Assembly (NCBI GenBank): GCA_938036315.1
Contig: CALHPK010000018.1
Span: 1 to 52,113 of the forward strand
From: an uncultured bacterium
GTDB lineage: Bacteria > Calescibacteriota > Calescibacteriia > Calescibacteriales > Calescibacteriaceae
DNA: 52,113 nt
Reading direction: 5' to 3'
The position numbers and the translations under genes are program-made. Shown here piece after piece: positions 2,785 through 51,030 of this stretch (positions are counted from its first letter, which is position 1; every line of letters begins with the position of its first letter). The notes under the pieces are model-generated. The model was not told the origin of the DNA and ran no database searches. It saw nothing but the letters and a program-made list of their open reading frames with translations.

Positions 2785-2838
2785 AATTTATAACGTAAGC
2801 GGAATTTATAACGTAAGCGGAACTTATAATGTAAATTG
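2785..2838. repeat. 18-bp tandem repeat, three copies
   Basis: Two perfect adjacent copies of AATTTATAACGTAAGCGG (2785-2802, 2803-2820) followed by a third with 13 of 18 matches (2821-2838). Each unit contains a TATAAC/TATAAT-like core. The block lies in the intergenic region between two divergent genes. Confidence 0.9.
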
Positions 2839-2990
2839 TAATATAGCCATAATGTGCAAAAGAAAAGATTCTGAAAAAGGAAGATGGGAAAATATCGTTA
2901 AGATGTAAAAAGGGAATTCAGAGGTATACGATCGGCAAAATATTACGGCACATTTGTGGGGCGGTAGTGAACCTTTAAGTATTTGCAAAG

Positions 2991-3019
2991 TTGTTAAGGC
3001 ATTGTAGAAATAGTATAAT
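2991..3019 (+). promoter_or_regulatory. sigma-70-type promoter of the cobalamin adenosyltransferase gene
   Basis: TTGTTA (2991-2996), a 17-bp spacer, then a perfect TATAAT (3014-3019). The predicted transcript would start near 3026, giving a leader of only about 15 nt that carries AAGGGG (3026-3031) before the ATG at 3041. Confidence 0.7.
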
Positions 3020-3040
3020 GGTATTAAGGGGTTTTTTTAG

Positions 3041-3655
3041 ATGAGCGAAAGTGAAAGTAACAAAAGGAAATTCTTCAGAATTACAAAGATAACTACAAAG
3101 TTCGGAGATAGTGGAGAAACATATATACCTGGAGGATTTGTAGTGAGCAAATCACATTCTAGAATAAGGGCATACGGGGCAGTGGATGAGCTTGTAAGTC
3201 TCCTCGGCTATATCATATCTGTGATTGAGGATTCAGATAGAAAAGATGTTCTCATCGACATAAAGGATGTGCTCAGAAGGATTCAGGATCAACTCTTTGT
3301 GCTTGGTGGCGACTTAGCCAGACTCTTTAGGAAGAGCGATGAGCATCGTCCCAAATCGGTAAAGCAAGCAATGATAGATTGGCTTGAGGAGGAAGAAGAA
3401 AAATTCCTTCAAGAACTTGAGCCCCTTGAAGATTTTATCATACCAGGAGGGAGCAGAATATCGGCTTTGATACATCTAGCAAGAACAGTAGCGCGCAGGT
3501 GTGAGACAGAAATTGTAAATCTTGCCTGTACAGAAAAAATAAATCAAAAATGCATAGTATATATAAATAGACTTTCAGATTTACTCTTTATTCTCGCCAG
3601 AATTGTAAATAAAAGATTAGGGATAAAAGAAGAAATAGTAAATTGGGAAGCTTAA
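3041..3655 (+). CDS. PduO-type cob(I)yrinic acid a,c-diamide adenosyltransferase
   Basis: ATP:cob(I)alamin adenosyltransferase of the PduO/EutT superfamily, which transfers the 5'-deoxyadenosyl group of ATP to cob(I)alamin to make coenzyme B12 in the cytoplasm. The diagnostic N-terminus is present after about 18 extra residues: 'TKFGDSGETYIPGG' (the T-x-x-GD-x-G ATP-binding loop), then 'RIRAYGAVDELVSLLGYI', and near the C-terminus 'HLARTVARRCETEIV' and 'INRLSDLLFILAR', the conserved helices with the R-x-x-ER-like and NRLSD motifs. 204 residues is normal. It heads a plus-strand run with proC, the prepilin peptidase and HMG-CoA lyase and has its own good promoter; no other B12 biosynthesis gene is near, so it may serve salvage. 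Confidence 0.92.
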   Translation: MSESESNKRKFFRITKITTKFGDSGETYIPGGFVVSKSHSRIRAYGAVDELVSLLGYIISVIEDSDRKDVLIDIKDVLRRIQDQLFVLGGDLARLFRKSDEHRPKSVKQAMIDWLEEEEEKFLQELEPLEDFIIPGGSRISALIHLARTVARRCETEIVNLACTEKINQKCIVYINRLSDLLFILARIVNKRLGIKEEIVNWEA

Positions 3656-3721
3656 TTTAGAAGTTGTAGATAATTTAAAATTGTTTAAATTGTGGCTTGA
3701 TAGTAGCATAGCTCTGATGCG

Positions 3722-4483
3722 ATGAAAATAGGCATAATAGGAGTAGGGAAAATAGGGACTGCAATTGCAAGGGGGCTTAGGAATAGTAGCTTCAGATTAT
3801 TCCTTTATGATAAAGTTGGTGTATCACAAGAATTCCAGATGTACGCCGTTGACTCTTGTGAAGAACTTGTAAATAATTCAGATGTAATATTTGTAGCGGT
3901 TAAGCCGAAAGATGTTTACGATGTGCTTACAGATATTTCAGATCTTTCTAAGGATCGTCTTGTGGTATCGGTTGCTGCAGGAATAAGATCAGATGTTATA
4001 AAAAAATTTGTAAGAAGGTGGGCTAGAGTTATGCCCAATATTCCATTAGAGCAAAGGGAAGGAGTAGTAGCGATCTACTCATCGGATAGTAATGATTCTG
4101 AATTGCTTGCCGAGATATTCAAAGATTTAGGAAAAACCTACATCGTCAATTCAGATGATGAAATAGATATTTTTACCGCGGTATCAGCATCTGGACCTGG
4201 CTATCTTGCTGTTTTAATGGAATCTTTTGAAGATGCAATAGTGAGAGCTGGGCTTCCTCGGCAGATTGCAAGAGAGATCTCAGCTCAAACATTTCTTGGG
4301 ACAGCAAAGCTTATACTCAGTGGCAAATCTCCTTCTCAGATCAAAGATGAGGTTATGACTCCTGCAGGAACTACTGCGGAGGCAATTTTCCATATAAATG
4401 AAGCAAGAAAAATTATCTTTTATGCAGTTAGTTCCGCAATCCAAAGATCAAAAGAAATCTCAGAAATTCTAAAGAGTAAATGA
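3722..4483 (+). CDS. proC: pyrroline-5-carboxylate reductase
   Basis: Last enzyme of proline synthesis: NAD(P)H-dependent reduction of 1-pyrroline-5-carboxylate to L-proline in the cytoplasm. The N-terminal Rossmann fold shows 'GIIGVGKIGTAIARGL' at residues 3-18 and 'VIFVAVKPKDV' after the second beta-alpha unit; the C-terminal dimerisation domain carries 'AVSASGPGYLAVLMESFEDA', 'GLPRQIAREISAQTFLGTA' and 'VMTPAGTTAEAI', the substrate-binding signature. 253 residues is slightly short but complete. Its stop codon overlaps the start of the prepilin peptidase gene by 4 bp (ATGA), indicating translational coupling. Confidence 0.95.
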   Translation: MKIGIIGVGKIGTAIARGLRNSSFRLFLYDKVGVSQEFQMYAVDSCEELVNNSDVIFVAVKPKDVYDVLTDISDLSKDRLVVSVAAGIRSDVIKKFVRRWARVMPNIPLEQREGVVAIYSSDSNDSELLAEIFKDLGKTYIVNSDDEIDIFTAVSASGPGYLAVLMESFEDAIVRAGLPRQIAREISAQTFLGTAKLILSGKSPSQIKDEVMTPAGTTAEAIFHINEARKIIFYAVSSAIQRSKEISEILKSK

Positions 4484-5250
4484 TAATAGCAGGAATATTT
4501 TTATCTTTCATCTGGGGAACTATATGGGGATCTTTTGGGTCAACAATAGTATATAGGACTAATAGAGGAATGTCCATTGTAAAACCACCATCGTTATGTC
4601 CTAACTGCGGAAAAATTTTACCTTGGAGGCACAAAATACCAATTTTGAGTTATGTGGTTCTCGGTGGAAAATGCGGTTTCTGTGGAGCTAAGATAAATCC
4701 ATTTTACATTATTACAGAATTTTTATCCGGTATTACTGGCGTTTTTGCTTTCATATTTTCTGATTCAACTTTGAGTTTTTTACTCAACTTCTTCTTCCTC
4801 TGGAGCCTATTGATTCTCACAATATCAGATATTATGTATTTGCATATTCCTGTTTTGAATATTGTTATTGCTACCGCTTCTGCCGTCGTTTATCAGATGG
4901 TTCAGGGTGATTACAAAGATATGATTTGGGGTATGCTTATAGGAGTATCGATCCCTCTGGTTATATTATTGCTGTACAAATTCCTAAGGAAGAAAGAAGG
5001 GATAGGAGAGGGGGATATTTTAGTTATGTTTCCAGTGGGGGCGTATTTTGGTTTTTCCGAAACTTTGACCATCTTTATTTTATCTACTTTGCTAGGAGGT
5101 TTTGTATCTTTAATTCTCCTTATACTTGGAAAGAGCAGGGAGTCTATGATTCCATTTGTTCCATTTATATTTATTTCAGTTATTCTTGTATTTTTATTAG
5201 AGAGATTATATCTGACGGATTTGAGATTTGTCCCTCGTTTTTTGTGGTAA
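4480..5250 (+). CDS. pilD: type IV prepilin peptidase / N-methyltransferase (A24 family)
   Basis: Bifunctional membrane aspartic peptidase that cleaves prepilin leaders and methylates the new N-terminus. The N-terminal domain has the full zinc-binding set C40-x2-C43 and C65-x2-C68 ('LCPNCGKILPWRHKIPILSY', 'GKCGFCGAKI'). The catalytic aspartates are D117 in 'ISDIMYLHIP' and D179 in 'GEGDILVM'. About eight hydrophobic helices. It overlaps proC by 4 bp. No pilin or pil assembly gene is in the window, but the intact active site implies that type IV pili or a type II secretion/competence apparatus exist elsewhere in the genome. Confidence 0.93.
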   Translation: MIIAGIFLSFIWGTIWGSFGSTIVYRTNRGMSIVKPPSLCPNCGKILPWRHKIPILSYVVLGGKCGFCGAKINPFYIITEFLSGITGVFAFIFSDSTLSFLLNFFFLWSLLILTISDIMYLHIPVLNIVIATASAVVYQMVQGDYKDMIWGMLIGVSIPLVILLLYKFLRKKEGIGEGDILVMFPVGAYFGFSETLTIFILSTLLGGFVSLILLILGKSRESMIPFVPFIFISVILVFLLERLYLTDLRFVPRFLW

Positions 5251-5282
5251 TTTCTGCAAACTTGATAAGTAATTAATTTTTG

Positions 5283-6245
5283 ATGATGGCAGATAGATTC
5301 GAGGATGTAACTAAAAGTAGAAGTAGAAGTAGAAGAAAGGATGTGATTATAGTTGAGGTTTCACCACGTGACGGGCTTCAGAATGAGAAAGAGATTGTTC
5401 CAGTTGAGTTGAAGGAAAAATTTATAAGGAAGCTTATGGAAAGTGGGGTTGATGAGATAGAGGTGGGATCTTTTGTCTCTCCAAAGGTTGTCCCTCAGAT
5501 GAAAGATACGGACGAGCTATTTTTGAGGATTGAGAAAAACGGTATACGTGTGAAGTTTTCTGCTTTGGTTCCGAATCTCAGAGGTTTTGAGAGGGTTATG
5601 AATTTGCCGGCTGATAAGAGACCTGAAAAGATTGCAGTTTTTACTGCTGCTTCTGAAACTTTTAACAGAAGGAATATAGGGATGACTATTGAGGAATCTC
5701 TGAGGGTTTTCAAAGATGTGATAATGGAAGCTAAGAGGAATAGATTTGAGGTTAGAGCTTATATCTCTACTGCCTTCTGGTGTCCGTTTGAAGGTAAAAT
5801 ACCACCTGTGAGAGTCATTAAGATTTGTGAAGAGCTTTTTAGTTTGGGTGCAGATGAGATTTCAATTGCGGACACAATTGGTAGGGCTTCTCCTTCTGAT
5901 ACAAGGGAGCTTCTTTCTGACATTGCGAAAAGTTTTGATGTTTCAAAAATAGCTATGCATTTCCATGCAACTTATGGTATGGCAATTACTGATGCTTTTG
6001 TATCTTATGAAGAATTTGGAGTAAGGAGGTTTGATAGTTCAGCGGGAGGGCTTGGAGGATGCCCTTTTGCACCGGGAGCGCGTGGGAATATTGCTACAGA
6101 AGATCTGGTCTTTGCCTTTGAGAGCTCCGGTATAAAAACTGGAGTTGATATCAAAAAGATTATTGATGCTGTATCTTGCTTGCAAATTCATCCTCGCTCA
6201 TCAATATCTCAGATAGAGAAAATAATTATGTATGATGCATCATAA
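5283..6245 (+). CDS. mvaB: hydroxymethylglutaryl-CoA lyase
   Basis: Cleaves HMG-CoA to acetyl-CoA and acetoacetate, the last step of leucine degradation (or ketone body formation). A TIM-barrel DRE-metallolyase: 'EVSPRDGLQNEK' carries the R-D pair at the first strand, 'AMHFHATYGMA' the metal-binding H-x-H, and 'GGLGGCPFAPGARGNIATED' the catalytic cysteine loop specific to HMG-CoA lyases as opposed to isopropylmalate synthases. The start is one of two consecutive ATGs (5283, 5286); a TTG at 5280 is also in frame. Oddity: the N-terminal 18 residues include SRSRSRR, encoded by a 6-bp tandem repeat (AGTAGA three times, 5316-5333). No other leucine catabolism gene is next to it. Confidence 0.93.
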   Translation: MMADRFEDVTKSRSRSRRKDVIIVEVSPRDGLQNEKEIVPVELKEKFIRKLMESGVDEIEVGSFVSPKVVPQMKDTDELFLRIEKNGIRVKFSALVPNLRGFERVMNLPADKRPEKIAVFTAASETFNRRNIGMTIEESLRVFKDVIMEAKRNRFEVRAYISTAFWCPFEGKIPPVRVIKICEELFSLGADEISIADTIGRASPSDTRELLSDIAKSFDVSKIAMHFHATYGMAITDAFVSYEEFGVRRFDSSAGGLGGCPFAPGARGNIATEDLVFAFESSGIKTGVDIKKIIDAVSCLQIHPRSSISQIEKIIMYDAS

Positions 6246-6302
6246 TCATATAGTAGATTATCGGATCACAGTAATTTTGAATAGGTTGTCTAATTTTAGT
6301 TA

Positions 6303-7202
6303 TTAATTTTTTGATAGTCCCTTTTCCGGGAGAAAGATTAAAGGATTGAGGGCTTGAGTTCTCCTTCTTATCTCAAAGTGAAGGTGTGGCATTTGAGCGT
6401 TCCCAGTCATACCAACTTTTCCGATCTCTTGCCCTTTTCTGACAAAGTCATTTTCTTTTACCATGTTCAATTTGTTATGTGCATATACCGTAAAGAAATC
6501 TCCTTCATGTTTTATTATTATGACATTCCCGTATCCTTTAAGGAATCCTGAGAAGATTACGACACCATCTGCTGATGCCTTTATTGGGGTTCCTTCTGGG
6601 GCTTTTATATCTATCCCTTTATGTTCCTTGCTCCCTCTTTGTCCAAATTGCGATATTACTTCTCCATCTACAGGCCAGATAAATTCAGGCTTTGCTGTTT
6701 TATATTTTTCAGGTTTCTGTAGTTTCAGTTCTTCATTTTCTCTCTTCAGTGAAGCTAAATCAGTTTTTTTACTGGGTTGCGGTAAATCTTTTATTGTTTT
6801 TTTCTCATACTCATTCTTTTTTATATCATTTTCATCTTTCCTCAGTTGTTCAGGTTTTTCTTTCACAATTTGTGTTTTTTCTGAGCTATAGTTTTCAGGT
6901 TGACTTTTTGCTTTATCAATTTTTGCTTTATCAAGAGGGATATATATATAGTTTCCTTCTTTGATCTTCTCCGGAGCAAATCTCCAGGGATACTTGCTAT
7001 TTTCTCTTATTATATCTTCTTCTGAGACATTGTATTTTTCAGCTATGTCTTTTAGAGTCTCACCCTTTTTCACTTTATGGTATATTCCGTATCCGCATGA
7101 GTAGGCTATTGTTAGAAGTATAGGAGATAATTTCAGAAGTTTTGTCCATATTAGAAGTTTTGTCCATATTTCCCTTTTAATTCCACAAATCTGCATGGGC
7201 AT
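6303..7202 (-). CDS. LysM and M23 peptidase domain protein (NlpD/EnvC-like)
   Basis: Cell-wall metalloendopeptidase or amidase activator. Order: a hydrophobic signal segment (LKLSPILLTIAYSCGYG, possibly a poor lipobox), a LysM domain at about residues 41-92 ('YHKVKKGETLKDIAEKYNVS', 'IKEGNYIYIPL'), a charged Lys/Glu-rich linker, and a C-terminal M23 domain with 'GSKEHKGIDIKAPEGTPIKA' (H-x3-D zinc ligands) and 'MPHLHFEIR' (H-x-H). The zinc ligands appear complete, so it may be active, unlike EnvC or NlpD. The start at 7202 (or ATG 7196) lies inside pcm, an overlap of about 50 bp. The overlap contains an 18-bp tandem duplication, and a second 15-bp tandem duplication lies in the linker (DKAKIDKAK). 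Downstream of pcm in the same transcription unit, as nlpD often is in other bacteria. Confidence 0.9.
   Translation of the reverse strand: MPMQICGIKREIWTKLLIWTKLLKLSPILLTIAYSCGYGIYHKVKKGETLKDIAEKYNVSEEDIIRENSKYPWRFAPEKIKEGNYIYIPLDKAKIDKAKSQPENYSSEKTQIVKEKPEQLRKDENDIKKNEYEKKTIKDLPQPSKKTDLASLKRENEELKLQKPEKYKTAKPEFIWPVDGEVISQFGQRGSKEHKGIDIKAPEGTPIKASADGVVIFSGFLKGYGNVIIIKHEGDFFTVYAHNKLNMVKENDFVRKGQEIGKVGMTGNAQMPHLHFEIRRRTQALNPLIFLPEKGLSKN
6905..6934. repeat. 15-bp in-frame tandem duplication inside the M23 gene
   Basis: Two perfect adjacent copies of TTTTTGCTTTATCAA (6905-6919, 6920-6934), encoding a doubled DKAKI on the minus strand between the LysM and peptidase domains. Confidence 0.9.
7135..7170. 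repeat. 18-bp tandem duplication across the pcm stop codon
   Basis: Two perfect adjacent copies of AGAAGTTTTGTCCATATT (7135-7152, 7153-7170). The block spans the pcm stop codon (7151-7153) and the N-terminal coding part of the M23 gene, where it encodes the doubled TKLLIW/TKLL sequence. Confidence 0.95.
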
Positions 7203-7873
7203 AGCTTTACTATTTCTATTTCATTTTCTCTAGCTTTAATAATTTTACAAAGGTGTTGCTCGTTGTTTTGGGAAAGTGGCATAATAACAATTCCTCCTGT
7301 TTTGAGTTGTTGAATAAATGGTGGGGGGATTTTTTTAGCAGAGGCCGAAACGCAGATTCTATCGTATGGCGCTTCTTCAACAAATCCTTCAGATCCATCT
7401 CCAACAACAAACCTTACATTTTTTACTCCTAAAAGTTCAAGTCTATTTTGCGCAAGTTGAGAGAGTTCTTCGTGTATCTCCACGGTTATAACCTCACTTG
7501 ATAGTACTGAAAGTAAGGCGGTCATATAGCCTGATCCGGTCCCGATTTCGAGGATTTTCTCCTTTCCAGAAAGTTCGAGATTCTCGAGCATAAATGCTGT
7601 GACAAAAGGCTGAGATATAGTCTGGTCAAATCCTATTGGTAGTGGTGTATCGGAGTAGCTATGCTTTATGAGGTCAGAAGGGACGAACATATGTCTGGGG
7701 ATCAGCATCATAGAAAGGAGGACTTTTTTATCTTTTATTCCTTTGCGTTCGAGGAGTCTTACCATTTTTCTTCTTTTATCGTATAGTTCATAGGTGAATT
7801 TTTCTACGTTTTGTGGGATATTGAGTTTTAATATTCTGCATTGTTCTATGATATTTTGTTGATCCGATAGCAT
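7151..7873 (-). CDS. pcm: protein-L-isoaspartate O-methyltransferase
   Basis: SAM-dependent repair enzyme that methylates isoaspartyl residues of damaged proteins. The family signatures are in order: 'VLLSMMLIPRHMFVPSDL', 'SDTPLPIGFDQTISQPFVTA', the SAM-binding motif 'ILEIGTGSGYMTALLS', 'VGDGSEGFVEEAPYDRICVS', and 'QLKTGGIVIMPL'. The first 36 residues before 'MVRLLERKGI' are an extension relative to many homologues, so the methionine at residue 37 is an alternative start. It lies between the diguanylate cyclase gene (19-bp gap) and the LysM-M23 gene (overlap), consistent with one minus-strand operon. Protein repair enzymes of this type are common in thermophiles but not restricted to them. 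Confidence 0.94.
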   Translation of the reverse strand: MLSDQQNIIEQCRILKLNIPQNVEKFTYELYDKRRKMVRLLERKGIKDKKVLLSMMLIPRHMFVPSDLIKHSYSDTPLPIGFDQTISQPFVTAFMLENLELSGKEKILEIGTGSGYMTALLSVLSSEVITVEIHEELSQLAQNRLELLGVKNVRFVVGDGSEGFVEEAPYDRICVSASAKKIPPPFIQQLKTGGIVIMPLSQNNEQHLCKIIKARENEIEIVKLCPCRFVELKGKYGQNF

Positions 7874-7892
7874 TATAGTTGGGTTATTGTAT

Positions 7893-9281: not shown

Positions 9282-9291
9282 CTTCAGCTTG

Positions 9292-9297
9292 ATTATA
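9292..9297 (-). promoter_or_regulatory. -10 box close to the start of the diguanylate cyclase gene
   Basis: A perfect TATAAT on the minus strand ends 10 nt before the ATG at 9281, with no convincing Shine-Dalgarno in between. The matching -35 region is weak. It suggests a very short or absent leader. Confidence 0.4.
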
Positions 9298-9363
9298 TAA
9301 ACCCATTTTTAATTTTAAGACTGAAAAAGTTAGATTCGAATTTCACAAAAGTCAGTATCTTAA

Positions 9364-9885: not shown

Positions 9886-9921
9886 AGTGAAAAGATCTGC
9901 CAATATAAAGCTAATAAAAAA

Positions 9922-10842: not shown

Positions 10843-10856
10843 AGCCGTATTCCTTG

Positions 10857-10945: not shown

Positions 10946-11056
10946 CTCATTATTGTCTTGTGCAATAGACTTTGTTTCAGGTTATTAAGGTCACCGCTTA
11001 CGATCAAGGTTCAAAGTAAGCTCACAATTTTGTGATTTTTGTAGAATTTTATAGTT

Positions 11057-11090
11057 TTTGAAGCAGGATCGCGTTTGAAGCAGGATTGCA
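11057..11090. repeat. 17-bp tandem duplication
   Basis: TTTGAAGCAGGATCGCG (11057-11073) directly followed by TTTGAAGCAGGATTGCA (11074-11090), 15 of 17 identical. It lies in the long gap between rfbC and fabD. Confidence 0.9.
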
Positions 11091-21215: not shown

Positions 21216-21243
21216 TTTTCATATTTTTATTTTCATATTTCTA
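21216..21243. repeat. 14-bp tandem duplication
   Basis: TTTTCATATTTTTA (21216-21229) followed directly by TTTTCATATTTCTA (21230-21243), 13 of 14 identical, upstream of sppA. Confidence 0.7.
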
Positions 21244-21556: not shown

Positions 21557-21588
21557 TTTTGTAAATATGTTATTTTGTAAATATATTT
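21557..21588. repeat. 16-bp tandem duplication, imperfect
   Basis: TTTTGTAAATATGTTA (21557-21572) followed directly by TTTTGTAAATATATTT (21573-21588); the first 12 bases of each unit are identical. Confidence 0.65.
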
Positions 21589-26190: not shown

Positions 26191-26532
26191 AGGCTTATAG
26201 TCTAATTCTTAGAATTTTATTTTATCACAATGTTCAAAAAAGTGGTTCAATTAAATAATTTATCGAGTTATTATTTATAGAATTTTCATCTCTTCCTAAT
26301 CTGGCATTAGGTCTGCAATTGAATCGATTGAATCAAGGGACTCGTTCCATACTTGAGAATTCTTTCTTATCTTGAGAATTCTTTCTTATTTATCCTATTG
26401 ATCTTGGTTAGGTTTTTTCGCTTCTTTCCCTGAAGGTAGATATTTAGAAATCATCTAAAATCCTTTGCTAAGAGCAAAATTTTTGAAATCCGCTTAAATT
26501 ACATAATAGATTGTACAGCTATCAATTTTTAT
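26191..26532. other. intergenic region with tandem duplication
   Basis: A 342-bp gap between divergent genes. It contains a perfect 19-bp tandem duplication (26352-26389) and a 9-bp one just before it (ATTGAATCG/ATTGAATCA, 26318-26335). No open frame or RNA gene is supported. Confidence 0.5.
26352..26389. repeat. 19-bp tandem duplication, perfect
   Basis: Two identical adjacent copies of CTTGAGAATTCTTTCTTAT (26352-26370, 26371-26389) in a divergent intergenic region. Each copy contains the palindrome GAATTC. Confidence 0.95.
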
Positions 26533-34365: not shown

Positions 34366-35370
34366 TTAAAACTCCTCTTTTATCTCATACTGAAGTAGTT
34401 CCTTTACTGCAGATGGTATATCTAAGTTGAGATACAGTATTTTGTAGACTGCTTCAGCTATGTTCATTCTTATGCCGAGTTCTACTGCAGTATTGTAGAC
34501 TATTTTAGTTGTTGGATATCCTTCAACTACTTCTCCGATTTTGTCAAGAGCTTCGCTGGGAGGAATTCCTTGCGCAACAAGTTTTCCAAATCTTTTATTT
34601 CTAGATAGATATGACAGAGCAGTGGCGAATAGATCACCAATCCCTGCAAGGCCAAAGAAAGTTTCTGATTTTGCTCCGAATTTGTTTCCGAATCTTACCA
34701 TCTCACTTGCAGACCGGGATAGAAGAAAAGCAAGCGAATTTGTTTTGAAGTCAAGTGTCTCTAAGATTCCAGCTGCTATTGCATATACATTTTTTAAAGC
34801 TCCGGCTAGTTCTACACCAATTACATCATAGGAAAGGTAAATTCTGAAAAATGGGGAGTGTAAGGTACTGTACACTTTTTCTTGCACTTCTTTTAAATTT
34901 GAAGCAATAATTGCTCCAGATGGGTATCCTTCCAAGATCTCTCGAGCAAGGTTTGGACCTGAAAGAACTCCTATCTTCCTACAGCAAGTTTGTTCCTTTA
35001 TGATCTCCGTCATCCTTTTTCCTGTGTTAAGTTCGAGTCCTTTCGATGCACTCACTATAATGTGGTCTCCTTCAATAAATTTTGAACTTTTATTGATTAC
35101 ATCGCGAAAGGATTGAGTTGGTATGGCAACAAATATCAGCTTGCAATTTTGGAATATATTCTGGAGATTTTCAGTAGCTGTTATTTTAGAATGTATTGGG
35201 AATTCTCTGAATCTTTTTGGGTTCTCACCTTTTTCATTTATGCTATTTACAACTGCTGGATCTCTTGACCAGATCAGCACTTCTTTTCCATTTCTGCATA
35301 GAATATGAGCTAGAGTCCATCCAAAGCTTCCAGCCCCGAGAATCCCCACAGGTTTATCTGTTTTCCGCAT
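34366..35370 (-). CDS. gpsA: glycerol-3-phosphate dehydrogenase [NAD(P)+]
   Basis: Reduces dihydroxyacetone phosphate to sn-glycerol 3-phosphate for phospholipid synthesis. 'GILGAGSFGWTLAHILCRNG' is the nucleotide-binding loop, 'LIFVAIPTQSFRDVI' and 'IIVSASKGLELNTGKRM' the middle motifs, 'VELAGALKNVYAIAAGI' the catalytic lysine region, and 'FFGLAGIGDLFATA' with 'EVVEGYPTTKIV' the end motifs. 334 residues, complete. It is followed immediately by the GT-C-like gene (2-nt gap). Confidence 0.97.
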   Translation of the reverse strand: MRKTDKPVGILGAGSFGWTLAHILCRNGKEVLIWSRDPAVVNSINEKGENPKRFREFPIHSKITATENLQNIFQNCKLIFVAIPTQSFRDVINKSSKFIEGDHIIVSASKGLELNTGKRMTEIIKEQTCCRKIGVLSGPNLAREILEGYPSGAIIASNLKEVQEKVYSTLHSPFFRIYLSYDVIGVELAGALKNVYAIAAGILETLDFKTNSLAFLLSRSASEMVRFGNKFGAKSETFFGLAGIGDLFATALSYLSRNKRFGKLVAQGIPPSEALDKIGEVVEGYPTTKIVYNTAVELGIRMNIAEAVYKILYLNLDIPSAVKELLQYEIKEEF

Positions 35371-35473
35371 ATTTATATTTTACACATATCTACATTTTAC
35401 AATTTAGGGCATAATTTATCTCTTTCCGTTTACAATCTGTTTATCTGCAGACAGAATCTTTGCAGTTTTTGGG

Positions 35474-36661: not shown

Positions 36662-36668
36662 GCTCAAT

Positions 36669-42281: not shown

Positions 42282-42328
42282 TTCAGGATACTTTCAGGTT
42301 ATATTTTCTTATTTTTCAAAATTTTAGA

Positions 42329-42956: not shown

Positions 42957-42964
42957 CGCTATGG

Positions 42965-43426
42965 CTACAAAATTCCGAATTTTTTTAGTATAGCTTCTAT
43001 TCTCGGATCTATCTTTGATAGTTCTATGAGTACTTCTGTGAGTGCATCCACTAATTTTTTTAGATTGCCTCTTTTTTCAATTTCTTCTAAGGTTTCTTCC
43101 TTTGCCCGTCTTATTATTGTTCTTCTGTCCCAGAGAGCAAACCCTATTACTCCCAATGTTAGTGTAGTAAATATTCCAGCTAATATGATCAAGAATGTCA
43201 TAAACTGGTCAAGCCTTCTGTTTATGTCTTCAAATCTTCTGTTTATTTCTTCGAATCTATTGTTTATGTCATTGAACCTTTCGCTAAATCTTTTTTCTAA
43301 TTGTTCGATTTTTGTTTCAACTCTTATAAGTCTATCTCTATCTTCAAGGGTGTAAGGTACTTCTTTCCCGTAGGCATTTGATGTAAACAGTGCGGAAACA
43401 AGGAAAACTATGAATATATAGATCAT
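42965..43426 (-). CDS. membrane protein with heptad coiled coil, unknown
   Basis: About 153 residues from ATG 43426 (GTG 43513 is in frame and overlaps the previous gene). A signal peptide ('MIYIFIVFLVSALFTSNAYG'), then 'LEDRDRLIRVETKIEQLEKR' and a coiled coil with near-perfect heptads ('RFEEINRRFEDINRRLDQF'), one transmembrane helix ('FLIILAGIFTTLTLGVIGFA') and a basic cytoplasmic tail. The same architecture is common in small proteins of Aquificales and other thermophiles, with no known function. Encoded by 21-bp direct repeats (43215-43277). It lies between the glycosidase-like lipoprotein gene and hisH. Confidence 0.75.
   Translation of the reverse strand: MIYIFIVFLVSALFTSNAYGKEVPYTLEDRDRLIRVETKIEQLEKRFSERFNDINNRFEEINRRFEDINRRLDQFMTFLIILAGIFTTLTLGVIGFALWDRRTIIRRAKEETLEEIEKRGNLKKLVDALTEVLIELSKIDPRIEAILKKFGIL
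43215..43277. repeat. 21-bp tandem repeats encoding coiled-coil heptads
   Basis: Three adjacent 21-bp units (43215-43235, 43236-43256, 43257-43277) that encode successive seven-residue repeats of the coiled coil; the first two differ at only two positions. Confidence 0.85.
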
Positions 43427-43503
43427 ATTTAAAAATGTAATATTTTTTGAATATCTATATTGAAATGGTGTCAATTTTGCTTGTTTAGAGAGTGTGGATT
43501 GCT

Positions 43504-44838
43504 TTACTTGCACCAGATATTTTTGTTTTCTTTATTCAAGTTTTTGTATGTATAGAAGGCTTTTTTCTTTTCGCCGTTTGCTCTGTACAGTCCCCAGTAA
43601 CTTTCAATTCTCTGGTATGGGGGGCGGGATTCCTCCTCAATTTCTGTTGAATCCAACCTGAATAACAAAATGCCATGAATTTTATCTTTTGCTTCAGCAA
43701 AGATGTTGCTGATGTATTCTGATTGATTATCTTCAGAAAATCCAAGTTCTGTTGGGGCTGATGGATATCCGGTCTCGAGAATTAGTATTGGCTTTTCTCT
43801 ATTTTTTGAGCTCAGGAAGTCTTTTATAGTTTTTATTCTTTCTGAGACGATTTTTGCTTTTTCTGGAGATGTGGCGGTTTGGCCGAGAGCTACCGCTAAA
43901 TAATTTGGATAAAAATCAAACCCTATAACATCCATGTAATCAAGAAAATCTTCAAGATCAACTTCAATACCACCTTCTACCCATTTACCTTTTTGAACCA
44001 AATCTATATGATACATAAAATCTGTGTGTAGGTTTATTGTTGTTAGAACTTCATTGTCTTCTTCCTTTATACCTTTGTGGATTATTTGTATAAGTTCTTT
44101 TATAAATTCTCTTGAGCACCAAGAAGGTCCATGTCTCCAGCCGAATGCTAATGTTTCACAGGTTACATTGACTTCGTTTTCGAGTATCCACATATCTACC
44201 AGTCCTTTGTATACTTTTGCTAGGGCTCTTGAATTGAGATATGCCCACCCGAGATAATACTCATGTCCAACAGTATCAGGGAGATATCTTTGGGGTAGAT
44301 CATAAGGATTGAACTCCATCTTGTAGGGGCAGTAATCGGTTTTATAACACGGAAGTTCTCCTGTATATCCTACTGATGCGCTTCCGATTATGAAAATTTC
44401 ATCGCCAAAGCTTTCTCTCAATTTTTTGAGGAGAAAAATATATTTGGATAACTCCAGTAGATTTGCTGATCTTATGTACTCATCTACTATTTTTTCATTT
44501 ATTTCTGATACTTTGTATTTTTTGTCAAATCTTTTTATGGGGATGTGTGTAGTGGCTTTTACGGTATTTATTGATAATTCTTTTATATCTTCTACGAGTT
44601 TTTCCATCTTTTCTTCGATGGAAAGATTTCTATATGGGGCATATGGATAAAGATATTGTGGAGAGGATATATGTATACCATAGAGGAACCCACATAATCT
44701 TTTGGTTTTCGGCTGATCTGATTTGTTGGCAGAAGAACTGCAACTATTAAAGATAAAGGCAAAAGAAAAAGAAGCAGTATAATGAATAACAAAGTAAAAA
44801 AGTATATATCTGAAACTGCTGAGATTAATCAGATTCAC
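43504..44838 (-). CDS. glycosidase-like lipoprotein (clan GH-A type TIM barrel)
   Basis: 444 residues, GTG start at 44838 (no ATG in frame). Lipoprotein signal with Cys33 ('FIFNSCSSSANKS'). The rest reads as a TIM barrel. In clan GH-A glycosidases the acid/base is an N-E pair at strand 4 and the nucleophile a glutamate at strand 7; here 'WILENEVN' supplies N221-E222 and 'ILILETGYPS' supplies E355, with 'GFDFYPNY' at about strand 6. This resembles family GH53 (endo-galactanase) or a related family, but I cannot name the substrate. Surface-anchored. Its end overlaps the GTG alternative start of the coiled-coil membrane gene. Confidence 0.75.
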   Translation of the reverse strand: MNLINLSSFRYILFYFVIHYTASFSFAFIFNSCSSSANKSDQPKTKRLCGFLYGIHISSPQYLYPYAPYRNLSIEEKMEKLVEDIKELSINTVKATTHIPIKRFDKKYKVSEINEKIVDEYIRSANLLELSKYIFLLKKLRESFGDEIFIIGSASVGYTGELPCYKTDYCPYKMEFNPYDLPQRYLPDTVGHEYYLGWAYLNSRALAKVYKGLVDMWILENEVNVTCETLAFGWRHGPSWCSREFIKELIQIIHKGIKEEDNEVLTTINLHTDFMYHIDLVQKGKWVEGGIEVDLEDFLDYMDVIGFDFYPNYLAVALGQTATSPEKAKIVSERIKTIKDFLSSKNREKPILILETGYPSAPTELGFSEDNQSEYISNIFAEAKDKIHGILLFRLDSTEIEEESRPPYQRIESYWGLYRANGEKKKAFYTYKNLNKENKNIWCK

Positions 44839-44903
44839 AGATTATAGAATATTGATTAGCTACAAAAATTTTTGAAAACTTGAAAATTCTTAAAGATATG
44901 TAA

Positions 44904-44969
44904 AAAGATAATGTGATAGAATTAAGATTATGTAATAAAGATAATGTGATAGAATTAAGATAAAGCGAT
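44904..44969. repeat. 33-bp direct repeat upstream of acpP
   Basis: Two adjacent units of period 33 bp (44904-44936, 44937-44969); the first 25 bases of each are identical. Each copy includes TGATAGAAT, which resembles an extended -10 element (TGnTATAAT), so the duplication may double a promoter. Confidence 0.8.
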
Positions 44970-45007
44970 AAAATTGAGATTTGTGAAGTTAGATTGGAGG
45001 TAAGCCT

Positions 45008-45247
45008 ATGGATGACCTTGGAACTAAGGTGAAACAGGTAATAGCAGAAAGGTTAGGTAAGAAGGTAGATGAGATAAGAGATGATGCATCATTTATCGAG
45101 GATCTCGGGGCGGATTCTCTTGATATTGTTGATATGGTTATGAAACTTGAGGAGGAATTTGGAGTATCAATTCCTGACGAGGAACTTGAAAAAATAAGGA
45201 CAGTTAAGGATGCCATTGATTATATAAAAACTAAAAAAGGAGGGTAA
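45008..45247 (+). CDS. acpP: acyl carrier protein
   Basis: 79-residue ACP that carries acyl chains on a phosphopantetheine attached to Ser37 in '[20 protein letters not shown]'. The acidic helix II ([11 protein letters not shown]) and '[19 protein letters not shown]' are complete. GGAGG precedes the ATG. It is separated from the other fab genes in this window (fabD at 9922) and followed after 6 bp by the FBP aldolase/phosphatase gene, a probable bicistron. Confidence 0.97.
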
Positions 45248-45253
45248 AAAGTT

Positions 45254-46393
45254 ATGGCTAAAAAAGTCACCTTATCTCTTATAAAGGCGGATGTAGGTTC
45301 AGTTGCTGGGCATACTGCTCCACATCCGAGAATGTTGTCTGCGGCCAAAAGTGTTGTTTTAGACAGCGTAAAAAAAGGTATAATTGAAGACTTTATGCTT
45401 GCAAGGTGTGGAGATGACATATCTATTCTCATGTCCCATGACAAAGGAGAGAATAATGAGAAAGTTCATAAGATCGCTTGGGATGCGTTTATGGCTGCTG
45501 CTGAGGAAGCTAAAAAAATGCACCTTTATGGGGCGGGACAAGATCTCCTGGCTGAGGCTTTCTCAGGGAATATAAGAGGACTTGGCCCCGGAGCTGCGGA
45601 GATGACCTTTGAGGAGAGAAAATCAGAACCAGTAGTCGCACTGCTTGCAGATAAAACCGAACCGTCAGCTTTCAATTTGCCGCTGGCAAGAATTTTTGCT
45701 GATCCATTCACCACCACAGGACTTGTAATAGACAAAAGAATGCATGATGGCTTTTTCTTTGAAGTTGTCGATGTAAAAGAACACAAAAAGATAAAAATTT
45801 CAACTCCTGAGGGTCTTTACGATCTCCTTGCATTCATAGGAGATATAACACGATATGCTATAAAGAGGGTAATATCTAAGGATAATTCTATAGGTATTGC
45901 TGCGGTGGTATCAACTGAGAAACTCTCTTTAATTGCGGGAAAATATGTAGGTAAGGATGATCCTGTGGCGCTTGTGAGAACTCAATCGGGTTTACCTGCT
46001 GTGGGAGAGGTACTTCAGCCTTTTGGGTTTCCTGCTCTTGTGTCGGGGTGGATGCGTGGTTCGCACTGGGGACCTTGGTATCCGGCAACTCAAGATGATT
46101 CAAACCCAACTTTCTTTGATGGGCCACCAAGAATAGTTGCTCTCGGATTCCATATTACAGACGGCAAAATTCAAGGGATAGAAGAAGAATCTCGTCCAGG
46201 TGAGCACCTGCCTATAGACTACTTCAAAGATTCAGCGTGGGACTACGTAAGGCGACAGGCTATGGAGCACGCAATCTACATAAGAAGACACGGTCCATTT
46301 ATGCCATCTATATTACCTCCAGAAGAGCTTGAATATACAACGCTCCCGGAGATCCGCAAAAAGCTCGAGAAAGCATGGGAACCAGCTGACTGA
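45254..46393 (+). CDS. bifunctional fructose-1,6-bisphosphate aldolase/phosphatase
   Basis: Family FBPase type V (FBPA/P), the dual gluconeogenic enzyme that joins triose phosphates and then dephosphorylates FBP. Signature strings 'LSLIKADVGSVAGHTAPHPR', 'LYGAGQDLLAEAFSGNIRGL', 'ADPFTTTGLVIDK' and the catalytic 'YVGKDDP' with Tyr231, Lys234 (Schiff base) and Asp235 in the aldolase/phosphatase switch; a second Tyr in 'LEYTTLPEIR' near the end. 379 residues. Known from archaea and deep-branching, mostly thermophilic bacteria, so it is a taxonomic clue to unidirectional gluconeogenesis in this organism. Confidence 0.97.
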   Translation: MAKKVTLSLIKADVGSVAGHTAPHPRMLSAAKSVVLDSVKKGIIEDFMLARCGDDISILMSHDKGENNEKVHKIAWDAFMAAAEEAKKMHLYGAGQDLLAEAFSGNIRGLGPGAAEMTFEERKSEPVVALLADKTEPSAFNLPLARIFADPFTTTGLVIDKRMHDGFFFEVVDVKEHKKIKISTPEGLYDLLAFIGDITRYAIKRVISKDNSIGIAAVVSTEKLSLIAGKYVGKDDPVALVRTQSGLPAVGEVLQPFGFPALVSGWMRGSHWGPWYPATQDDSNPTFFDGPPRIVALGFHITDGKIQGIEEESRPGEHLPIDYFKDSAWDYVRRQAMEHAIYIRRHGPFMPSILPPEELEYTTLPEIRKKLEKAWEPAD

Positions 46394-46497
46394 AAACTTT
46401 CTAATATAAAGGGCAATTCTTAAGTAAGATCAATATTACCACCATAATATAGCGCCTTTTGATCTAATTTAGTTGATTATGATCTTGAAAGACGTAT

Positions 46498-46523
46498 TAC
46501 TAAATTGCGGTACTAAATTACAG
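46498..46523. repeat. 13-bp tandem duplication, imperfect
   Basis: TACTAAATTGCGG (46498-46510) followed directly by TACTAAATTACAG (46511-46523), 10 of 13 identical. Confidence 0.6.
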
Positions 46524-46668
46524 CGCCTTATCTGATCTGAATATTATTGAAAATTTTAGAAATGATGGCCTGCAAAATCTTTTAGATATTCCATACATCT
46601 AAATAGTATCTAATGCTACATTGTAAAATTAGGGATTTTCATACTGATAAGTACTAAAAGGTATGCCG

Positions 46669-46700
46669 ATTGTCGACAAGAGATATTGTCGACAAGAGAT
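46669..46700. repeat. 16-bp tandem duplication containing a TTGTCGACAA palindrome
   Basis: Two identical adjacent copies of ATTGTCGACAAGAGAT (46669-46684, 46685-46700). Each contains the perfect 10-bp palindrome TTGTCGACAA, so the locus carries two inverted-repeat sites 16 bp apart about 60-90 bp before the next gene: a good candidate operator. Confidence 0.9.
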
Positions 46701-46760
46701 AAAAAATGTATGGCAGAGTGCGATCACCAAAACTTTTAAAATTATCTTATGGAGGATTTT

Positions 46761-47213
46761 GTGCTGATTGCTAATCTTTTCTTTCTTGTTATGATTATAC
46801 TATTTGCAGTAAAGATAAGGCTAGATTTTGAGAATCTAAAGAAAAAGTTCTCTGAGCAATCCGATGTCTGCAAGGAAATGAAGATAAAGAGCATCTCGGA
46901 TGAGGAAAGGATTTCGTCAATTGAGAGTGATATCAAAAGTCTTGATGGGAGGATTTCAGCAATACACCAAGAAGTAGAAAAGATAAAGTTATATTACTTT
47001 AATCAGCGAAGTTTGAAAACTGATGATTATCATAAATCCTCAGCAAGTCAAATAATGAGAGCAACCTATAGCACTATTGATGGTGAGGATATGAAAAGTA
47101 AAATTAGAAAACTTCTTCAGGAAGGTAAAACGCCGGACGAAGTACAGAAAACTCTCGGAGTATCCTACGAAGAAATTAAACTTGTTCTTAACTTAATGAA
47201 TAAAAAATATTAA
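46761..47213 (+). CDS. single-pass coiled-coil protein with C-terminal DUF6115-like helix-turn-helix
   Basis: About 150 residues. I prefer GTG 46761 because GGAGG (46751-46755) lies 5 nt upstream; the ATG at 46749 overlaps that site. N-terminal transmembrane helix ('VLIANLFFLVMIILFAVKIR'), a coiled coil (about 20-90), and a C-terminal 'IRKLLQEGKTPDEVQKTLGV' plus 'SYEEIKLVLNLM', which matches the small helix-turn-helix tail of DUF6115/SwrB-like membrane proteins often linked to flagellar genes. It is followed after 14 bp by the TPR protein gene and is likely co-transcribed with it. Confidence 0.65.
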   Translation: MLIANLFFLVMIILFAVKIRLDFENLKKKFSEQSDVCKEMKIKSISDEERISSIESDIKSLDGRISAIHQEVEKIKLYYFNQRSLKTDDYHKSSASQIMRATYSTIDGEDMKSKIRKLLQEGKTPDEVQKTLGVSYEEIKLVLNLMNKKY

Positions 47214-47227
47214 TTAAGGGGTTCGCT

Positions 47228-49267
47228 ATGGAACTTTTAGGTGTTCTCTTTTTCTTGGCGAGACTGAAAGATTTAACCATTGAACATATAGGTATAAATT
47301 CAAAACCAACGTTCTCTTATGTCATAATCCATGTCAGTTCCTCTGATTTTGAGCTCGAAAAAGATAAAGAAGACAAGAATATAAGAATTCTCGTCAGGGG
47401 AGTATCTCCGCCTTCTAAGAAGCTTCAGATCAGAGGTGATAAATTGGTGAAGGACTTATATGTCATCCCAGTCAAAGAGGATAGGGGTAGGATAAGTTCT
47501 CTGGTTTCGATAAAGCTCCACAGAGAAGATATTGATTGGTATGTTGTCAAATCAAGGGGCCTTATTTTTGTTTTTATTGGGAAGGGACTTCCTTTTTCTT
47601 ACAAAATTGATCTTGAGGAATACTTTAAAGAATCAGTAAGGGTGGGGAATTTTTCTGCTTTAGATATTATGTTTTCATTCTCGCAAGTAGAAGATGCTTC
47701 AATCCGTTCTTTAGCTTTGTACTACATAGGAGAAATGTTTACAAAGATGGGACTAACCCAAAGATCAAGATTATTACTCTTGCGAGCTGGGGCTTACTAT
47801 GGAATTTCTGCATCTGAGTATCTATCGCTGGGCAAAGTTGAGGAATCGGTAAACTCGAGATTGAAAGCATCCGAAGTCTTCAGAATTGCCAGATTTTATC
47901 CGGAGGCAGAGTATCAGGCCTTACAAGCCATTAAAACTCTTGAAGATCAGCAGGAGGGTATCAGAAATATTCCAGAAAGTAGATTGGGCGAGCTGAAAAC
48001 ATTATCCATATGCTACCGTTCTTTAGCCCTTGCAGGAGCAAGGAAGTTTGAGAAAGCTGTTGAGAATTTTTACATGATAGATCTTGGAAGGGGAGTTCCT
48101 GATTCTTCAAGGGATTGCATATATTCTTTTTTGGGTATAATAGAATTTGAAAAAGGTAATTACGATGAGGCACAAAAGTATTTGAGTTATGTCAGTAGCA
48201 AATTTATTATGTCAGAACCATTAGTATTTCAGCGATATGTGAAAACACTTATGAATACTGGAAGGTTAGAGCTTGCAAAAAAATATGCTTTTTCAATGAT
48301 AGATTCTATGTATCCAGAGATGCAGGGTCAGGGGCATATATATTTTTCGCAAATCCTTATCAAAGATGGAAATTATCAGACTGCTATAAGGTATATCTGG
48401 AGGACTATATCAAAGTTTGCGGGGACAAGATGGGAAATTTCGGCTCGCCTTATTGCTGTTGAGAATAAAGAAGAACTTGCAAAGGTATATAATCAAATTC
48501 CAAAAAGAGAAATTCCCAAAAATGATCCTGTTTTAAATCCTCTGCCAAATCTTAGATTTATTATCTCTCGTTTTATATTCCCCGAAAGTTATGAAGCAGT
48601 TCCACTTTATATATCCGAGATAATAAATGAAGTAAGGGAAAGTAAAGATTTAGATATCATATCAAAAGAAATCGAATATTTAGATGAGATTCTTAAGGTT
48701 TTTAGAGTTTTGAATTTGCCTCCAACTATCAGAGAGAAGGTAAAAGAGAAGAATCTTGAACTTGCCCGAGAACTTGTGAAAAAGGATAGAAAGATTGAAG
48801 CGGTATCACTATTTGTCGGAAACAGGGATTTCTTCCCACCAGACTATTCAGAGGATATTGAGTTTCTCAAAAAACTTGCCGAAAGCTTAGGTTTTTCAGA
48901 ATCTGCTACGAGCTCAGAAACCCCCCAGAGTGTGAAACCATCAGGAAAGGTGGAGGGTAGATCAGTTGAGGATCTGCCAGGAATTTACACTATAAGATAT
49001 ATAGAGCAATTTATTAATGAAAAAAATTGCGACAAAGCTTTATCATATTTCGAAAAATACAATGATAAGATAAAATATTTGCCTGATTATGAAGATATAG
49101 CTTTCAGATTAGCCTATTGCCTTTTTTCTATAAAAAGCCCTCTTCTCCAGGAGTTTTGCTCTATCTATCCAATAGATATTTTTTGTTATCCATCACGGAC
49201 AACTTACGATGATATTTTAGACAAAACAATAAAAGAGATAATTGAAGGGTTAAAGCATTCTAATTAA
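47228..49267 (+). CDS. AMIN-like and TPR-repeat envelope protein
   Basis: 679 residues. Short hydrophobic N-terminus (ELLGVLFFLARL), which may be a signal. Residues about 15-115 form a beta-rich domain with the rhythm of an AMIN domain ('FSYVIIHVSSSDFELEKDK', 'RGLIFVFI'), found in T4P secretin-associated and amidase proteins. From about 130 to 420 there are TPR-like helix pairs ('ALYYIGEMFTKMGLTQRSRL', 'FLGIIEFEKGNYDEAQKYLS'), and the C-terminus has another helical section. It probably works in envelope assembly. Coupled to the coiled-coil/HTH protein upstream. Its 3' end overlaps the convergent pgpA by 18 bp. Confidence 0.7.
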   Translation: MELLGVLFFLARLKDLTIEHIGINSKPTFSYVIIHVSSSDFELEKDKEDKNIRILVRGVSPPSKKLQIRGDKLVKDLYVIPVKEDRGRISSLVSIKLHREDIDWYVVKSRGLIFVFIGKGLPFSYKIDLEEYFKESVRVGNFSALDIMFSFSQVEDASIRSLALYYIGEMFTKMGLTQRSRLLLLRAGAYYGISASEYLSLGKVEESVNSRLKASEVFRIARFYPEAEYQALQAIKTLEDQQEGIRNIPESRLGELKTLSICYRSLALAGARKFEKAVENFYMIDLGRGVPDSSRDCIYSFLGIIEFEKGNYDEAQKYLSYVSSKFIMSEPLVFQRYVKTLMNTGRLELAKKYAFSMIDSMYPEMQGQGHIYFSQILIKDGNYQTAIRYIWRTISKFAGTRWEISARLIAVENKEELAKVYNQIPKREIPKNDPVLNPLPNLRFIISRFIFPESYEAVPLYISEIINEVRESKDLDIISKEIEYLDEILKVFRVLNLPPTIREKVKEKNLELARELVKKDRKIEAVSLFVGNRDFFPPDYSEDIEFLKKLAESLGFSESATSSETPQSVKPSGKVEGRSVEDLPGIYTIRYIEQFINEKNCDKALSYFEKYNDKIKYLPDYEDIAFRLAYCLFSIKSPLLQEFCSIYPIDIFCYPSRTTYDDILDKTIKEIIEGLKHSN

Positions 49268-49690
49268 AGCTTGCATTACAATATTTGTTATTATCCCACC
49301 TACCACATCATCAAGGAGTATCCCATAAGGCGATTCCATTTTATCAAATATGTTAACCGGTGGGATTTTCAAAATATCTATAAGCCTAAATATCGCAAAA
49401 GATAAAAGGAAGTATTCTACTTCTTTGGGTAGAAAGATTATCGAAAGCCCCATCCCTATAACTTCATCAGCAACTACATAGTGAGGATCTCTTTCCTGCC
49501 ATATTTCATTAATTTTGTGTGCAAGAAAGATAAAGATAAGGGCTAAGATGGTGATAAATAAAATTTGAAAATACGTATTCATAAAATAAAGTGCAGTAGC
49601 CGAGACTATAGAAGCAACTGTTCCTTGACCAATCGGAAAGAAGCCGATTCCAAAGAATGTGAAAAACAGAATATACAATCTTTTTTTCAT
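49250..49690 (-). CDS. pgpA: phosphatidylglycerophosphatase A
   Basis: 146-residue membrane phosphatase that makes phosphatidylglycerol from its phosphate. 'FFGIGFFPIGQGTVAS' (family N-terminus), 'HYVVADEVIGMGLS' with the conserved acidic residues, and 'FRLIDILKIPPV' and 'GILLDDVVGGI' (D-I-x-K-P and LDD) match the PgpA family in order. It follows tilS by 26 bp on the same strand. Confidence 0.92.
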   Translation of the reverse strand: MKKRLYILFFTFFGIGFFPIGQGTVASIVSATALYFMNTYFQILFITILALIFIFLAHKINEIWQERDPHYVVADEVIGMGLSIIFLPKEVEYFLLSFAIFRLIDILKIPPVNIFDKMESPYGILLDDVVGGIITNIVMQALIRML

Positions 49691-49716
49691 AATTCGTTTG
49701 ATTTGATTTTTATATG

Positions 49717-50592
49717 TTAGAATGCTCTTTTTAGTTCTTCAAAATTAATTTTCCCATTCTTTTCTTCGAAAAGCTCAATCTGTTTTTTTATGAGAGGTGA
49801 GATTTTTTCAGAGATAGCTTTTTCCTCTTTGATAACCTGAGCTAAAAAATCGACAATTTCTATCGAGGAAAGCCAAAATTTCATAAATCCTGATAGCAGA
49901 TTAGAATATATTTCGTCAGGTAGTAGATTTAAAAATGCTCTTATTTGGTTTCTCAGATAAGATAGATCATAATTTGATGAATCTTCAATAAATGGGATCT
50001 GCCTTTCTCTGAGAAAGCTTAAGATTTTACTTCTTCTTATGACAAGTATTGGTCTTACTACTGCTACAGAGCATATATCTGTGTTTTTTATGGAGATCCC
50101 ACTTGCACTGAAGAATCCCCCACCTCTTATCAGGTTTATAATAAATGTTTCAATTTGATCATCAAGAGTATGGGCTGTTGCGATTTTTGTGGCTCCGAAT
50201 TCCCTTGCGGTCAAGTCTAAAAAATTATACCTCTCTTTACGCATTTCGGATTCTGTTTTGAGTACTCTCTGAGCTCTTCCAATTTTGTATTTTATTCCCA
50301 TGCTTTTACATAGTTCTGCGACAAAGTTCTCATCTCTGAAAGATTCCTCTCCTCTGGTCAGGTGATTGAAATGCCCACACACAACTTCTTTTATACCAAA
50401 CTTTGATCTGAAGTTTGAAAGCATGTAAAGTAGAAAGGTTGAGTCCTTCCCACCTGACACTGCAACCAGCACTTTATCACCTCTGTCAAATAGCGAAAAT
50501 TTTTTAGAAAATTTTACAGCTAATGCTACTGGATCTTGTGGGAGCGACTCAAAAAAAACTTTAGGAAATTTACTACCCTTAGAGTTATCCAT
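49717..50592 (-). CDS. tilS: tRNA(Ile)-lysidine synthase TilS
   Basis: PP-loop ATPase that converts C34 of tRNA(Ile2) to lysidine. 'KVLVAVSGGKDSTFLLYML' is the PP-loop, 'GHFNHLTRGEESFRDENFVA', 'RKERYNFLDLTAREFGATKI', 'ATAHTLDDQIETFIINLIRG' and 'EDSSNYDLSYLRNQIRAFL' are TilS signatures in order. The loop reads SGGKDS, as in TtcA, where TilS usually has SGGxDS with V or other residues, but the flanking motifs are clearly TilS. 291 residues, a short form lacking the full C-terminal domains. Confidence 0.9.
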   Translation of the reverse strand: MDNSKGSKFPKVFFESLPQDPVALAVKFSKKFSLFDRGDKVLVAVSGGKDSTFLLYMLSNFRSKFGIKEVVCGHFNHLTRGEESFRDENFVAELCKSMGIKYKIGRAQRVLKTESEMRKERYNFLDLTAREFGATKIATAHTLDDQIETFIINLIRGGGFFSASGISIKNTDICSVAVVRPILVIRRSKILSFLRERQIPFIEDSSNYDLSYLRNQIRAFLNLLPDEIYSNLLSGFMKFWLSSIEIVDFLAQVIKEEKAISEKISPLIKKQIELFEEKNGKINFEELKRAF

Positions 50593-50684
50593 ATATCAAT
50601 TTTTGTTCAGTTATATATTATAGCATTTTCTGCATTGTAAGTAGTATCACTAAAAGAGTAAGGAAAAATGCACAAATCTTTTAT

Positions 50685-50867
50685 CTATAACCTTGTATAT
50701 GCTACCACAAGTAAGAGCCCTGTCCCCATCCTGTCCCATTCTATCTCTCCCTCAACCCTATTTAGTCTATTTATAACAGAATACACGGTTTCACTTACTC
50801 GCCTTAATTGTTTGGAACCTTTCCCAGACCCGAACCCAAGTCCAACCCCAAAACAGTAGTTTGCAAA
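50685..50867 (-). pseudogene. possible gene remnant, open frame without a start codon
   Basis: On the minus strand an open frame of 60 codons runs from just after a TGA (50868-50870) to TAG (50685-50687). It reads as plausible protein: 'GVGLGFGSGKGSKQLRRVSE', 'TVYSVINRLNRVEGEIEWDR', then 'MGTGLLLVVAYTRL'. There is no ATG near its beginning and only an internal GTG, so it could be the 3' end of a decayed gene. The upper part is G-rich, with four G-runs (50823-50849 on the complement) of G-quadruplex type. An alternative is non-coding, structured DNA. I do not recognise any family. Confidence 0.35.
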
Positions 50868-50942
50868 TCATTAACTATCTCAATTAAAGATCGCAAAAGA
50901 ATATTCAACCCGGATTTCAGATTGAAGATACAGAATATAGCT

Positions 50943-51030
50943 AAAACACTACAACCGCAATTGTATCACTAACCGCAATTGTATCACTTGATGAAAAAAC
51001 ACTACAATTGTAATTGCGTTGCTCGATGAA
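50943..51030. repeat. nested tandem repeats upstream of the AAA-ATPase-like gene
   Basis: Core: two identical copies of AACCGCAATTGTATCACT (50953-50970, 50971-50988). Flanking this, AAAACACTACAA occurs at 50943-50954 and 50996-51007, and a diverged third unit (TTGTAATTGCGTTGCTCGATG) ends near 51030. The block ends about 60 bp before the ATPase-like start and may be regulatory or a site of repeated slippage. Confidence 0.8.

Follow-up and report, generated by a model that had tools for sequence, protein, structure and literature searches.

The window analysed here is one whole contig, 52,113 nucleotides long (CALHPK010000018.1 of assembly GCA_938036315.1), from an uncultured bacterium of the family Calescibacteriaceae, and it carries a series of short tandem duplications, in which a unit of unrelated sequence at each locus is directly followed by another copy of itself. 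The contig belongs to a draft genome of 1.87 Mb in 32 contigs, about 85% complete, and Calescibacteriota (Calescamantes) have been reported from hot springs at 70–90 °C (PMC4791363). The original prediction, an earlier reading of this contig alone, listed 11 such loci, all of which are present to within one base of where it placed them; it counted five or six perfect pairs, and we confirmed six, with units of 15–19 bp, while 30 dinucleotide shuffles of the window gave none. These six loci are certainly real. Two lie in frame in the same gene for an M23-type peptidase: two copies of a 15-bp unit at 6905–6934 repeat KAKID in the protein, and two copies of an 18-bp unit at 7135–7170, near the start of the gene and overlapping the 3′ end of pcm, repeat IWTKLL. 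Both repeats are absent from the four relatives in the family (∼46–51% identity), among which these segments are poorly conserved and variable. The other four are intergenic and consist of an 18-bp unit at 2784–2838, with two perfect copies (2784–2822) and a third, diverged copy (13/18 identical) upstream of a cobalamin adenosyltransferase gene (3041–3655, TIGR00636); two copies of a 19-bp unit at 26352–26389; two copies of a 16-bp unit plus one base at 46669–46701; and two copies of an 18-bp unit at 50953–50988.

Imperfect pairs are in excess as well. With units of 13–19 bp, the window contains 7 pairs with at most one mismatch compared with 0.15 in shuffled sequence, 13 with at most two compared with 1.3, and 30 with at most three compared with 9.9, such that chance supplies about a third of the last class. 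Among the imperfect loci, the intergenic pairs at 11057–11090 (17 bp, 15/17 identical) and 21216–21243 (14 bp, 13/14 identical, in a T-rich region) are likely to be genuine duplications, as is an intergenic compound array at 44893–44980, upstream of an open reading frame (ORF) resembling acyl carrier protein, where a 33-bp unit (29/33 identical at 44904–44969) contains nested periods of 19 and 14 bp. As shuffling also yields many pairs with three mismatches, the intergenic loci at 21557–21588 (16 bp, 14/16 identical) and 46498–46523 (13 bp, 11/13 identical) are doubtful when taken singly and could be chance.

We extended the count to 1,197 kb of the window's genome, about two-thirds of the total with ∼0.6 Mb lying outside, using perfect adjacent pairs with units of 10–31 bp as the main measure and dinucleotide-shuffled sequence as the control. 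We found 115 such pairs (9.6 per 100 kb) compared with 3 in the shuffles, and an enrichment of short tandem duplications in this genome is thus very likely. The shuffled control proposed with the original prediction was passed on 1.2 Mb of sequence, and its central idea, an active process that duplicates unrelated sequence and is neither a set of microsatellites nor one dispersed repeat, was borne out across the genome. Its uniform unit length of 15–19 bp did not extend beyond the window: the excess over chance begins at 8–9 bp, units reach 31 bp, those between genes are commonest at 10–14 bp, and, of the 109 perfect pairs located elsewhere, just 22% fall within 15–19 bp. That all six perfect pairs of the window do so is surprising, with a P value of ∼1e-4, computed post hoc. 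Pairs with one mismatch are also overrepresented in the genome (85 vs. 8 in shuffled sequence), suggesting that duplications have kept arising over time and did not all appear in one burst.

The frequency of duplications differs strongly between lineages. The family comprises five genomes including the window's own (G000–G004), each 82–86% complete, of which G001, G003, and G004 carry a common genus label; the next relatives beyond the four share only the domain. G004, Candidatus Calescibacterium nevadense, is as rich as the window's genome, with 24 perfect pairs in 213 kb (11.3 per 100 kb), and the other three contain 6 in 196 kb (G002), 1 in 145 kb (G001), and 0 in 200 kb (G003). In 24 control genomes of similar GC content from other families, we found 5 pairs in 795 kb. 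With G004 set apart, the relatives and controls thus have 0–3 pairs per 100 kb, and the window's genome exceeds the controls, G001, and G003 together with a P value of 3e-25, its density being about fifteen times that of other sampled bacteria. A high duplication rate is therefore a property of some lineages within the family. The relatives are too distant for comparison of intergenic sequence.

Within the window's genome, perfect pairs have a density of 74 per 100 kb in intergenic sequence and 3.1 inside genes, a 24-fold difference, and the units found in coding sequence are multiples of three in 24 of 34 cases (P value 1e-5). The split between coding and intergenic sequence is approximate, as gene calling simply took the longest ORF. 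The depletion in genes and the bias toward multiples of three show the duplications to be genuine mutations that selection has filtered, the pattern being that of neutral changes removed from coding sequence. This pattern disfavors artefacts of assembly, and also binding sites, as the principal origin of the duplications. An artefact of assembly or amplification could be imagined for G004, a Joint Genome Institute (JGI) draft that may be a composite assembly, judging by the name of its record, but artefacts do not feel selection, and we regard this origin as the least probable of all those considered. Repeated functional sites kept by selection, such as paired operators or RNA elements, would agree with the intergenic position of most duplications. 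However, the units are mutually unrelated, many lie in genes and in frame, a search of the window against Rfam gave no match, and the intergenic density is similar in divergent, co-directional, and convergent regions (68–80 per 100 kb), the last of which lack promoters. Selection for function is thus very improbable as the general explanation.

To characterize the joints, we described each event as L-U-R becoming L-U-U-R and defined microhomology as the bases that L and U have in common at their ends, or U and R at their starts. Across 139 joints, 47% share no base and 21% share one (68% at most one), compared with 52% and 28% (80%) under random placement, while joints with at least three shared bases make up 17% compared with 8% under the same null. 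Palindromes or hairpins in the units have no clear effect, the mean longest stem being 3.80 and that of random intergenic segments 3.59. These numbers bear on replication slippage or template switching, in which a polymerase, or the nascent 3′ end, moves back by 10–30 nt and recopies the template without any enzyme signature, at a high rate or with weak removal of the products. The twofold excess of longer overlaps means that slippage may account for some of the duplications, and the presence of MutS in the genome does not speak against it, as MutS is not expected to repair loops as large as these. On the other hand, most joints share no base or one, and slippage between pre-existing repeats, one of the processes first suggested for this contig, is weakened by joint microhomology only slightly above that of random placement. 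As the source of the whole set, slippage appears to us rather unlikely, although the minority of joints with longer overlaps may have arisen that way. Two specific defects were considered and rejected: MutS loss, MutS being present, and loss of the Pol I 5′ nuclease, a flap-nuclease defect, as the domain is present in the window's genome within an open frame of 901 residues.

The joints carry a base-specific signature. Reading 5′ to 3′ into the joint, C occurs at position −4 with a frequency of 0.28 at outer and 0.30 at inner joints compared with about 0.16 expected. Among 69 unambiguous cases, 15 have a C at −4 of each joint, on the same strand, whereas 3.9 are expected from randomly placed duplications of equal length, coding status, and overlap (P value 6e-6). 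This same-strand excess peaks at −4, the next highest position being −3 (9 vs. 4.0), and is specific to C, with A, G, and T showing nothing comparable at −4. In the window, the pair at 50953–50988 shows the full signature, on the plus strand (outer end CTAC, unit end CACT), and the left outer edge of the pair at 26352–26389 likewise has C at −4. A second set, the cases with one to four shared bases, contains 28 of 66 with the double C on the same strand compared with 9.7 expected. A strand-aware motif search gave a log-likelihood ratio of 137 compared with 71 ± 9 in matched random sets, −4 being the strongest position at both joints. The peak is present for units of 9, 10–13, and at least 14 bp and absent from the chance duplications of 6–8 bp in the window's genome and G003. 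Imperfect microhomology was rejected as the source of the signature, as there is no general excess of base matches at −4 but one of C only; for the same reason, the signature is not what slippage predicts.

A model in which both joints are marked on the same strand, with an estimated C frequency on the cut strand of 0.42 (0.33–0.51), fits both the marginal and the joint counts and exceeds opposite-strand models, those expected from staggered breaks, by 8–9 log units. This affects another of the processes first suggested, the filling-in of a staggered break with end joining, considered here for double-strand breaks with staggered ends or for offset nicks, with blunt joining along a Ku-independent route. 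Such repair would produce duplications of variable length without microhomology, as observed. But if C at −4 marks the cuts, these lie on one strand, and the opposite-strand arrangement of two outer marks is seen once compared with 5.2 expected, its model being 9 log units worse. Furthermore, neither Ku nor an ATP-dependent ligase was detected in the five family genomes, each 82–86% complete, the Ku search being positive in its Bacillus subtilis control; Y-family polymerases and reverse transcriptases were likewise not detected in these five. We judge fill-in with end joining to be improbable. In those coding duplications to which a cut strand can be assigned, it is the template in 9 cases and the coding strand in 4, too few to judge.

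The third suggested process, excision of mobile elements leaving their target site duplications as footprints, would explain the shape of some repeats in which the copies are not adjacent. Direct repeats of 13–30 bp separated by fillers of 1–20 bp are strongly enriched, with 74 in the window's genome and 19 in G004 compared with 2 in G003 (examples are L015:12903, L016:4679, and L054:2240). In about a third of them, the filler resembles part of a longer unit that has diverged; the others appear to have true fillers. However, the fillers look unrelated by eye, the separated repeats have no clear C at −4 signature, and most pairs contain no filler. Target duplications are of fixed length, whereas the units here are continuous from 9 to 31 bp. 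The mobile-element search covered RVT_1 and TnpB-type domains; no reverse transcriptase (RVT_1) was found, and TnpB-type nucleases gave no match in the window's genome and one in G003. Excision footprints are accordingly a very unlikely source.

Type IA topoisomerases cut one strand of DNA, hold its 5′ end, and reseal it to the 3′ end. Each of the five family genomes encodes two proteins with the PF01131 domain, one resembling topoisomerase I and the other of the size of reverse gyrase, and the reverse gyrase of the window's genome is intact (1,264 amino acids, TIGR01054 at 1,151 bits). Directly downstream of its gene, on the same strand and 141 bp away, lies a mutL-like gene (L112:3013–8652). 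A C located four nucleotides before the cleavage site is favored by both topoisomerase I and reverse gyrase (PMC7587558), and this is the position marked at the joints. We infer a mechanism in which a type IA topoisomerase would cut one strand at CNNN| and hold the 5′ end of the downstream strand, while the free 3′ end would be extended by 10–30 nt, displacing that strand, or a 3′ end would be supplied by the sister strand. Once the 3′ end again reads CNNN-OH, the enzyme could join the held 5′ end to it, and the additional 10–30 nt on one strand would become a tandem duplication at the next replication. The duplicated stretch would then be exactly the span between two CNNN sites on one strand, and neither homology nor Ku would be needed. 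We regard the duplications as independent, mostly recent mutations of ∼9–31 bp, unusually frequent in this lineage and mostly removed from coding sequence. Their excess, the trace of selection, the difference between lineages, the scarcity of microhomology, and the signature are direct observations, and we give about an even chance to the proposed cutting, extension or sister-strand exchange, and resealing by topoisomerase I or reverse gyrase.

Several observations weigh against a topoisomerase origin. The same-strand model is only ∼2 log units above one in which a single joint is marked on both strands, and C is estimated to occupy −4 of the cut strand at a frequency of 0.42, below what the preference in vitro leads us to expect, so that the preference must be relaxed or a topoisomerase must make just some of the duplications. 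In G004, the signature is weak, with 6 cases compared with 2.6 expected at −4, 7 compared with 2.4 at −3, and flat marginal frequencies. Attention was drawn to −4 by the data, before any enzyme had been considered, and the second test set is partly dependent on the first, as cases with a one-base overlap had already entered the first profile. Finally, both enzymes are encoded in all five family genomes, including two with almost no duplications, and something else must therefore set the rate.

Topoisomerase cleavage complexes are known sources of small indels in yeast and human, where Top1 produces deletions of 2–5 nt and Top2 de novo duplications of 2–4 nt (PMC11477040). The duplications described here resemble those of Top2 in that previously unrepeated sequence is duplicated, but the enzymes are of type IB or IIA and their units are shorter than the 9–31 bp found here with a type IA signature; moreover, Top2 duplications need nonhomologous end joining, and we detected no Ku. 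In Escherichia coli, the loss of topB, encoding topoisomerase III, raises deletions between short direct repeats (PMC5426353), showing that a type IA topoisomerase alters the rate of small rearrangements, although the duplications here arise without repeats. Among organisms of hot environments, Sulfolobus acidocaldarius has notable tandem duplications, those longer than 5 bp accounting for 13 of 163 spontaneous pyrE mutations (8%) and deletions for 3 (PMC7785828); it is, however, an archaeon. Our literature search, which covered few subscription journals, gave no report tying type IA topoisomerases to such duplications, and we know of none naming them as makers of such mutations. Ehrlichia ruminantium shows active intergenic tandem duplication, with units much longer than those here and variable in copy number, and to our knowledge no joint signature has been described for its repeats.

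Short tandem duplications are a common type of insertion, and their origin without microhomology is unexplained. A lineage with a roughly fifteenfold rate and a base-specific joint signature offers a naturally occurring mutator, open to dissection through comparison of sister species. We tentatively propose, with a confidence slightly short of even, that some thermophilic bacteria owe tandem duplications of 9–31 bp in large part to a type IA topoisomerase, perhaps reverse gyrase, and that this mutational process is recognizable by little microhomology and by C at −4 of the two joints on a single strand, its rate differing strongly between close relatives. If true, type IA enzymes, which are universal in cells, would join the topoisomerases known to write indels, and C at −4 of duplication joints would be worth seeking in mutation accumulation data from other organisms, S. 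acidocaldarius being a natural place for testing the signature.

Units also show a base bias at their starts. Within the first six positions of a unit, whichever strand is read 5′ to 3′, G is about twice as frequent as C in the window's genome, G004, and G002, with G:C counts of 195:93 between genes and 107:60 within them. Positions +2 to +5 contribute to this excess, so C at −4 accounts for only part of it.

Further imperfect repeats are present in the window. Tandem Repeats Finder (TRF) found two copies of a 15-bp unit (80% identical) in coding sequence at 5154–5183, which may be chance, and two copies of a 17-bp unit (88% identical) at 35368–35401, both absent from the original prediction, as well as 1.9 copies of an 18-bp unit (88% identical) at 51152–51185. 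At 43215–43270, 2.7 copies of a 21-bp unit (85% identical) lie within an ORF on the minus strand (42965–43513), the unit length being a multiple of three.

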